Shown here in pieces: positions 25,228-27,451 of a DNA stretch of 64,000 bases. The first letter of the stretch is position 1; each line of letters begins with the position of its first letter. The DNA comes from Halopenitus persicus (GTDB lineage: Archaea; Halobacteriota; Halobacteria; Halobacteriales; Haloferacaceae), in NCBI RefSeq assembly GCF_002355635.1, contig NZ_AP017558.1:2728001-2792000 (forward strand). The letters run 5' to 3'. Below the pieces are notes generated by a model. It ran no database searches, was not told where the DNA came from, and saw only the letters and a program-made list of their open reading frames with translations. A program made the position numbers and the translations under genes.

Positions 25228-25243
25228 TTTAGGCCTGCCTAAA
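25228..25243 (-). promoter_or_regulatory. DtxR-type operator upstream of the 84-residue membrane protein
   Basis: TTTAGG-CCTG-CCTAAA, 6-bp perfect arms with 4-base spacer. Confidence 0.7.
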
Positions 25244-25365: not shown

Positions 25366-25830
25366 TTACGCCACACACCGCCCGCCGTCACGTGAGCCGG
25401 GACAGCGTCCGAGACAGGCCGGACTGACGAGGTCGTGGAGACGGAACACGCCGTCAGCCGGCAACGTGACGCCGATGTCGAATGCCGACTCGTCGTCGAT
25501 CGGTGCCTCCACCACCGAGTCGAAGAAGGTCGACACGACGCAGAAGCGCCAGCCCGCTTCGCTGGCGAGCGCTCTCCCCTCGTCCGTGAGCCTCACACCC
25601 GTATACTTCTCGTGGTCGAGCAATCCGCGATCGGCGAGCTTCGACACCATCTCCGTGACGCTGGCGGGGGTCACGTTCAACCGTTCCGTCAGCTCACCGG
25701 TCGTGATCCGGTCCGAACCGGACGCCGAGGCGGTCGACACGGCGAGGAGATACCGAGCTGTGCTCCGCTCGACGTCCGAAAGCGAACGCGAACTCGTCGG
25801 TGCGGTCCCCGTTCGCGGTTGCGATGCCAT
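25366..25830 (-). CDS. DtxR/MarR-like metal-dependent regulator with a Cys-rich tail
   Basis: 154 residues. Winged HTH: LSDVERSTARYLLAVSTAS, ITTGELTERLNVTPASVTEMVSKLADRGLL, YTGVRLTDEGRALA, the arrangement of DtxR/SirR repressors. After the HTH the usual helical dimerisation region is replaced by RFCVVSTFFDSVVEAP and a tail ending in VSPACLGRCPGSRDGGRC. It is divergent from the metal exporter across an operator-like box, and three more such boxes lie within 5 kb. It is therefore the obvious candidate for the local metal regulator. Confidence 0.82.
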   Translation of the reverse strand: MASQPRTGTAPTSSRSLSDVERSTARYLLAVSTASASGSDRITTGELTERLNVTPASVTEMVSKLADRGLLDHEKYTGVRLTDEGRALASEAGWRFCVVSTFFDSVVEAPIDDESAFDIGVTLPADGVFRLHDLVSPACLGRCPGSRDGGRCVA

Positions 25831-25965: not shown

Positions 25966-26010
25966 TTAGGCACGTCTAATTATTTAGTTAGATCAACACC
26001 TTTTTAATTT
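25966..26010 (+). promoter_or_regulatory. Divergent operator/promoter region between regulator and exporter
   Basis: TTAGG-CACG-TCTAA (25966-25979) is a one-mismatch version of the TTAGG-N4-CCTAA box. An AT-rich TTTTTAATTTT at 26001-26011 sits about 35 bases before the small-peptide ATG at 26043 and can serve as its TATA region. Further half sites (ATTAGAC, CACCTAAT) flank the box. Confidence 0.55.
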
Positions 26011-26042: not shown

Positions 26043-26162
26043 ATGATGAAATCAGACGGAGCCGCTGCCTGGTCGGGAGACGGACTCCATCGGTGCCACC
26101 TCCACTGCGTCGTGGGCACGCGCACCGGAGAGCGGAGGACGAGGGAGGGGATGGACGAATGA
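26043..26162 (+). CDS. 39-residue peptide with an HRCHLHC motif, coupled to the metal exporter
   Basis: The frame begins MMKSDGAAAWSGDG, contains LHRCHLHCVV, and stops in an ATGA overlap with the exporter start at 26159. A TATA-like run lies at the distance expected for a leaderless mRNA. Three His and two Cys in seven residues would suit a metal-binding peptide or a metal-responsive leader. It is too short for codon statistics to settle; the overlap and promoter spacing are the evidence. Confidence 0.45.
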   Translation: MMKSDGAAAWSGDGLHRCHLHCVVGTRTGERRTREGMDE

Positions 26163-27451
26163 GTCCGCTCCAGTTACCCCCGGGATCGCTCGGATCGCCG
26201 CTCCAGGAAGTTCTCACCATCCTCGTTGGCTCGTGGCGCGAGGGGTTCGTCCAAGTCTCGGGTTTCGTCGGGGCGACGATCCTGCTGTTCAGCCTCGTCC
26301 AGTACGGCTTCGACGGCCGGATCACCGTGTGGCTCGAGGAGAACGAACGTGCCCAACCGCTTGCTGGTGCGCTTCTCGGCCTGACGCCGGGGTGTGGCGG
26401 CGCCATCATCGCGATGCCGCTGTACATCCGCGGGACGGTCAGCTTCGGGACCGTCGTCGCGGCACTTGCCGCCACCGCAGGCGACTCCGCGTTCGTCATT
26501 CTCGCGTTGGCCCCCGAAGCGGCGCTGTACGCCTACGGTTTGGCGTTCCTCTCGGCGATCCTGTTCGGCTACGCGATCGACTTCGGAGGCCTCGGGGTCG
26601 GCAGAGTCGACAGCGTCGTCGACCGGATGAGCTATCCGGTGACCGACGGCGGATTCTCCACCACCAACGTTGCTGCCGGCGGTCCAAGCATACCCGATTA
26701 CGAAGGGCCCGACCGCCACGGCCACGAAGACGAACACGCTCACAGCCATCACGGAAATGACCTGCCGAGTCGGCTGCCCGAGTCACGGCTGCTCGAGCGC
26801 TTCAGCCACGCCGTGCACGTTCTCTGGTGGTTCGTGCTCGCAGGAGCACTCGTTGCCGGCGTGATGTACCTCGTGCAGGGAGCAGCGGAGCCGGAATGGG
26901 TCCTCACCCCAACGTACGATGGGCTGTTCACGATCAGCGGGTTGGTGGGGACGACGCTCTCGTTTTACCTGTACTTCATCGGTCGACACTACATCGGTCA
27001 GGGTGAGACCGGCCGCGTCCGGGACTCGTTCGCCACCCTGTACAACACCTTCCAACACGCTGCGTTGGAGACGTCGATGGTCACCGTCTGGGTCATCGGG
27101 GGCTACCTCCTCTACGAGTACGGACTGTTGCTCACCGGCGTGGACATCCAGGGGCTCGCGGCGGCTGCCGGCGTCCTCGCTCCGATCGCGGGCGCTTTGA
27201 TCGGACTGGTCCCCGGCTGTGCGGCCCACATCGTGTTCGCACAGCTGTACGCGGTTGAGGAGGCGATCCCGTTCTCGGCGCTCGTCGCGAACGCCATCAG
27301 CCAGGACGGCGATGCGCTGTTCCCGCTGATGGCCATCGATATGAAGGCCGCCATCGTCGCGACGATCTACACGACGATTCCGGGCGTGATCACCGGCGTG
27401 CTGGTCTACTACTTCTGGCCGTACGCCCAGTTCGGGTTCGGGGTGCTGTGA
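26159..27451 (+). CDS. Putative 10-TM heavy-metal exporter (ArsP_2-like)
   Basis: 430 residues with about ten membrane helices arranged as two related halves, each with a signature: LLGLTPGCGGAIIAMPLYIRG and LIGLVPGCAAHIVFAQLY, followed in each by a small-residue helix and GDSAF/GDALF. Between the halves lies a cytoplasmic His-rich loop (HGHEDEHAHSHHG) suited to metal binding. This pattern matches the family named putative 10TM heavy-metal exporter. Given the DtxR-like regulator and operator, iron or manganese export is the likely job. The start is set by the ATGA overlap with the 39-residue ORF. Confidence 0.8.
   Translation: MSPLQLPPGSLGSPLQEVLTILVGSWREGFVQVSGFVGATILLFSLVQYGFDGRITVWLEENERAQPLAGALLGLTPGCGGAIIAMPLYIRGTVSFGTVVAALAATAGDSAFVILALAPEAALYAYGLAFLSAILFGYAIDFGGLGVGRVDSVVDRMSYPVTDGGFSTTNVAAGGPSIPDYEGPDRHGHEDEHAHSHHGNDLPSRLPESRLLERFSHAVHVLWWFVLAGALVAGVMYLVQGAAEPEWVLTPTYDGLFTISGLVGTTLSFYLYFIGRHYIGQGETGRVRDSFATLYNTFQHAALETSMVTVWVIGGYLLYEYGLLLTGVDIQGLAAAAGVLAPIAGALIGLVPGCAAHIVFAQLYAVEEAIPFSALVANAISQDGDALFPLMAIDMKAAIVATIYTTIPGVITGVLVYYFWPYAQFGFGVL

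Follow-up and report, generated by a model that had tools for sequence, protein, structure and literature searches.

A stretch of 64,000 nucleotides of Halopenitus persicus (NZ_AP017558.1, positions 2,728,001 to 2,792,000), hereafter the window, contains a predicted metal exporter gene that is preceded by a short open reading frame (ORF), here called the leader ORF. The following features were recognised at the locus.

25366..25830, minus strand: DtxR/MntR-like winged-helix regulator, divergent, 154 aa, PF01325
25966..25979, no strand assigned: DtxR/MntR-type operator TTAGGCACGTCTAA, palindrome TTAGRC-N2-GYCTAA, 77 nt before the leader ATG, found by pattern search
26001..26010, plus strand: TATA-like element TTTTTAATTT, recognised as AT-rich sequence and from an AT-rich peak in class-A loci (see below)
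26043..26162, plus strand: leader ORF, 39 codons and stop, starting at the first ATG of the predicted transcript
26088..26108, plus strand: HRCHLHC codons, real, lineage-specific and not conserved
26144..26148, plus strand: GGAGG, Shine-Dalgarno (SD)-like, inside the leader ORF, 10 nt before the exporter ATG
26159..26162, plus strand: ATGA stop/start overlap, predicted termination-reinitiation junction, from the sequence and its relatives
26159..27451, plus strand: 10-TM metal exporter, PF11449 / NF037962, 430 aa, His-rich loop HGHEDEHAHSHHG

The small ORF (26043-26162, +; translation MMKSDGAAAWSGDGLHRCHLHCVVGTRTGERRTREGMDE, then the stop) had been correctly described in an earlier note on this DNA, as had the three His and two Cys within the seven residues of HRCHLHC and the overlap with the exporter start, in which the leader stop TGA (26160-26162) and the exporter ATG (26159-26161) share the letters ATGA. 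The same note regarded the ORF as leaderless and as coupled to the exporter. A predicted (near-)leaderless start and a coupling layout are indeed found, and both are conserved across haloarchaea, but the start may not be strictly leaderless. The TATA-like stretch TTTTTAATTT lies ~33-42 nt upstream of the leader ATG at 26043, and because this distance leaves room for a short 5' UTR, the exporter transcript may have some 5' leader, at most roughly 10 nt long. The operator TTAGGCACGTCTAA and the internal GGAGG had both been overlooked; the operator pattern was matched four times in the window, against 0.04 matches expected. The leader peptide had no Pfam or NCBIfam match in profile searches, and the leader had no match in an Rfam search.

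The exporter belongs to PF11449/ArsP_2 (profile search, E=1.5e-107; 360 bits against a curated cut-off of 32.5) and also matches NF037962 (253.7 against a cut-off of 100), and its start at 26159 was picked as well by a codon-usage gene caller that is blind to overlaps. PF11449 relatives are named 'putative manganese transporter' in haloarchaeal plasmid records, and manganese is the predicted substrate. A palindromic operator is present at the exporter promoter in the window and in relatives, as in a DtxR/MntR regulon; the identity of the regulator, and its occupancy of the operator at this promoter, are predicted. In the divergent DtxR-like regulator (25366-25830, -), only the DNA-binding domain profile was matched, the dimerisation domain profile remained without a match in the profile search, and the protein has a Cys-containing tail SPACLGRCPGSRDGGRCVA. 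A fixed cassette of exporter and divergent DtxR-like regulator was considered and rejected, as regulator-like genes lie near few relatives only.

Exporter loci were collected through searches at the levels of order, family and genus, together with named contigs and retrieved stretches, and the exporter was present in 126 of 392 genomes of the order. After removal of duplicates, 88 haloarchaeal loci in which an operator TTAGAC-N2-GTCTAA could be recognised were compared. In 82 of them the first ATG after the promoter opens a short ORF that ends, often as NTGA, at the exporter start, defined as -17 to +8 nt from a start in the exporter frame, whereas mock starts placed in these sequences predict about 28 such cases. 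In four loci the first ATG is the exporter's own start, which is the other way of meeting the same rule. The two left over, L066 with a tandem ATGA-to-ATGA chain of two leader ORFs and L081, where an ATGA-coupled leader starts 9 nt ahead of the operator, are close variants of the layout.

Two promoter classes were distinguished. In class A, to which the window belongs, the operator lies upstream of the TATA element, the first ATG follows the operator start by 68-77 nt (31/31 loci, first tally), and an AT-rich peak occupies positions -40 to -29, counted from the leader ATG (33 loci). In class B a TATA-like peak is found 32-29 nt upstream of the ATG (54 loci), and the ATG lies inside the operator at 46 of 54 loci, compared with 7 of 33 in class A (Fisher p=3e-9), so that class-B leaders begin with MSN, MSK, MSL or MRL. 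Compared with mock starts, first-ATG leaders occur at 32 of 33 class-A loci against 11.8 expected (P about 5e-14), and for class B, where 16.3 of 51 were expected, P is about 3e-25; these values are optimistic since the loci are phylogenetically related, class A comprising about 21 genera. The stop/start overlap (-4/-1), or a spacing of less than about 14 nt, that marks a coupled pair is found, the commonest class-A junction being an overlap of exactly -4 (24/31). Leader length, judged by eye, ranges from 5 codons (L059) to 73 codons (L015). In four annotated plasmid copies of the exporter, whose gene table is incomplete, no leader ORF is annotated, and the annotated exporter start sits on an NTGA junction in three of the four. 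Two bacterial relatives (Aliifodinibius MAG; L042, L043), 58-59% identical to the haloarchaeal exporter, keep operator-like palindromes, and no coupled leader ORF was seen there; the similarity suggests transfer between haloarchaea and salt-loving bacteria.

The frame of these leaders is kept open without the marks of a protein-coding sequence. No stop was found in 950 leader codons, whereas the two alternative frames contain 15 and 20. GC contents at codon positions 1/2/3 were 0.645/0.649/0.642 in 34 leaders of class-A type and 0.673/0.492/0.902 in the exporters, and a protein-coding codon signature was absent from the 34 leaders pooled. Arg, Ser and Gly are abundant in the leaders, which are basic on average and resemble out-of-frame translation. 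As the leaders are open yet lack a coding signature, the constraint on them is that of staying open in the right frame. Between genera the 34 leader peptides are unrelated, with no shared residue or run. Within Halococcus they resemble one another; among five pairs compared, L008/L009 has fewer nonsynonymous changes than random placement (P=0.02), two more pairs are borderline (0.07-0.08) and L027/L068 has no such deficit, so some constraint on the peptide is possible in this genus.

It was reported for Haloferax volcanii that 72% of protein-coding transcripts are leaderless (PMC4983044), that SD motifs located in 5' UTRs are ineffective for initiation (PMC3986360), and that ATGA pairs are strictly coupled by termination-reinitiation, SD motifs being used only there (PMC6728339). 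Coupling falls at a spacing of 13 nt and is gone by about 22 nt (PMC10666635). Because haloarchaea do not initiate de novo at internal SD sites (PMC3986360, PMC6728339), an upstream translated frame would be needed; and because SD motifs are inactive in 5' UTRs and coupling is limited by distance, a gene 40-200 nt from its promoter gains from such a frame. An SD-like motif inside the upstream ORF, a mark of the coupled pair, is found in the window as GGAGG (26144-26148). Among 34 class-A leaders, 14 have such a motif immediately ahead of the exporter start, against 1.4% of windows elsewhere in the leaders; by the definition used, the other 20 lack it.

The anatomy of the locus, its conservation and the missing peptide constraint between genera are observed directly, and the transcription start and reinitiation at the exporter locus are inferred. 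We consider it likely that the ORF is a near-leaderless leader which delivers ribosomes to the exporter by termination-reinitiation, its role lying in its position and not in its product. According to this model, a DtxR/MntR-type metalloregulator would bind the TTAGRC-N2-GYCTAA operator and thereby control the promoter, RNA polymerase would start at most about 10 nt from the ATG at 26043, and ribosomes would initiate there in leaderless fashion. They would then read some 40 codons, the sequence of which is essentially arbitrary, and terminate at the TGA of the ATGA, and reinitiation at the overlapping exporter ATG would be helped by the internal GGAGG. The metal signal would act at transcription, and the leader peptide would probably be discarded. 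A further proposal is more tentative, and we hold it somewhat less probable than its opposite: with the leader start built into the operator or rigidly spaced from it, a single element might set both metal control and obligatory ribosome entry, with reinitiation efficiency as a fixed throttle on a membrane exporter across a whole archaeal class. Coupling gated by RNA structure was rejected, as no excess structure occurs at the junction (mean z -0.38), and so was a riboswitch, the leader being without an Rfam match.

The earlier note had proposed a peptide that uses HRCHLHC to bind metal and serves as a translational sensor or as a chaperone of the exporter. The motif is real and the ORF lies next to a metal exporter. 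Five or more Cys/His within seven residues were found in only two of 2270 six-frame ORFs of an own-genome control of 464 kb (20 stretches of 20 kb and the window); such runs are uncommon, yet several to about a dozen are expected per genome. The exporter is missing in both congeners compared, and the closest comparison was therefore at 85% identity. The search for short ORFs with the same motif before haloarchaeal exporters, which the note had suggested, recovered the layout but HRCHLHC at none of them: neither the motif nor the peptide has a counterpart at any of ~90 related exporter loci, and a peptide search in 392 genomes of the order gave scattered weak matches, none at an exporter locus. 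Conserved His/Cys ligands, the mark of a metal-binding small protein, were not found, and neither sequence nor length of the peptide is conserved. Cys and His make up 2.0% and 2.1% of leader residues, the frequencies of the other two frames (1.7-2.0% and 2.2-3.3%). The metal-binding proposal is thus not borne out, absence of the motif from relatives being what the note itself had named as refuting it, and we regard it as highly improbable; HRCHLHC is, from the sequences compared, best taken as an accident of one genome. The peptides could instead be fast-evolving functional small proteins, such as subunits of the exporter produced at a fixed ratio, since overlapping pairs often encode subunits of a complex (PMC10666635), and the similarity within Halococcus would agree with this. 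The flat codon-position GC, the lack of any conserved residue, and a basic, Arg-rich composition like out-of-frame translation and unlike acidic haloarchaeal proteins speak against it, as do loci with only 5-10 codons and four loci without any leader, which makes this reading quite improbable.

A leader-peptide attenuator was also considered, in which ribosome speed or stalling would respond to a metabolite or metal and so determine reinitiation. The layout is that of mycobacterial leaderless coupled ORFs, the Cys-rich ones of which were proposed as attenuators (PMC4633059), ribosomes would have to pass through the leader, and there is the weak sequence constraint in Halococcus. Against it, the conserved regulatory codon run that marks a Cys-type attenuator was not found in the 34 leaders, which share no codon run or residue across genera and contain 2.0% Cys; the length varies between 5 and 73 codons, and neither a conserved structure nor an Rfam riboswitch was found. 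An attenuator is consequently judged unlikely. Finally, the open frame might come about by chance from GC-rich DNA and exporter starts of the NTGA form, as the junction is likewise reached from roughly one in three mock starts, and in the own genome an ATG ORF ending with NTGA at the start codon precedes 28 of 216 leading genes, compared with 9 in the decoy frame (464 kb). The figure of 82 of 88 loci against about 28 expected, the fixed promoter spacing and the diverged sequence leave almost no probability to this explanation, which the mock-start test rejects. Part of the 28 NTGA cases are ordinary small genes, and a leader as a generic feature of all genes was also rejected, as only these 28 of 216 leading genes (decoy 9) have one.

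The proposed ribosome-delivery leader has known ingredients: leaderless initiation, NTGA coupling, leaderless coupled small ORFs (PMC4633059) and the concept, reviewed in PMC12548453, of a short ORF whose only task is ribosome delivery. With the overlapping pairs of H. volcanii (PMC6728339, PMC10666635) it has in common the ATGA or very short spacing, the internal SD motif and the haloarchaeal host, but both genes of those pairs encode normal proteins, whereas here the upstream ORF is a leader of 5-73 codons with no conserved product. The mycobacterial leaderless coupled small ORFs (PMC4633059) are similar in the short ORF, which is putatively leaderless here, the RTGA junction, the predicted delivery of ribosomes and a largely irrelevant peptide; they differ in that the present leaders are archaeal, belong to one exporter family, contain no residue-specific run and often start within a metalloregulator operator. 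The uORFs of H. volcanii, of 15-31 aa in long 5' UTRs, are likewise short haloarchaeal ORFs upstream of genes including transporters, but the available part of that report describes 16 peptides with a low isoelectric point and gives no analysis of junctions or conservation (PMC4983044), whereas the present leaders have a basic average composition and stop on the exporter's start codon. DtxR/MntR-regulated genes of manganese homeostasis, among them the exporters that Bacillus MntR is reported to activate (PMC11275975), resemble the present case in a DtxR-family-like palindromic operator before a predicted metal exporter; here, however, the promoter is archaeal, and regulator and metal are predicted from sequence. 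A literature search that covered few subscription journals found no description of a family-wide, sequence-free leader that is conserved before a metal exporter and whose start lies in, or is rigidly spaced from, a metalloregulator operator. The leader would answer, for one gene family, how haloarchaea translate genes 40-200 nt from the promoter, namely by a throw-away frame. It would also explain a class of small ORFs that can be mistaken for new peptides, and it counsels caution in reading function into motifs.

Haloarchaea may use this layout as a general solution, because the window holds a second case, at an iron permease, which is one of the 28 NTGA cases:

23475-23462: DtxR-type box, preceding the FecCD leader ORF
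23456-23325, minus strand: second leader ORF MKTAPPTVEAPPRRATSWGGGFRDGAVHVRASLDSGAVATVKL, 43 codons, ATGA onto the start of a FecCD iron-siderophore permease

In the congener locus L146 the FecCD leader, the 19 nt between box start and ATG, and the ATGA are kept and the peptide has diverged. In other genera the FecCD permease starts soon after the box or is read with an upstream gene, and the leader is not kept.

Several further boxes and one RNA match were noted as well. An iron-siderophore binding-protein-like gene extending to 19771 (-) is preceded by the DtxR-type box TTAGGTTGGCCTAA (21021-21008), with a leaderless-looking ATG (MERNDAAS...) immediately after it, and a longer, GTG-started ORF would begin inside the promoter. 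A perfect box TTAGGCCTGCCTAA (25229-25242) separates the DtxR-like regulator from a predicted membrane ORF of 84 aa (25144-24890, -); boxes like it, with at most one mismatch, number 21 in the genome, against 15 for a reversed control pattern. At L114 (own genome, C1, about 2,799,650), two tandem exporter-type boxes, TTAGACGTGTCTAA and TTAGATGAGCCTAA, precede a gene judged by eye to be multicopper-oxidase-like, which may tie the exporter's regulator to manganese or copper. The segment 27551-27730 (-) gave a sub-threshold match (32 bits, E=6e-6; gathering score 88) to Rfam sot0042, a sense-overlapping transcript RNA family, and is possibly the remnant of an insertion element.
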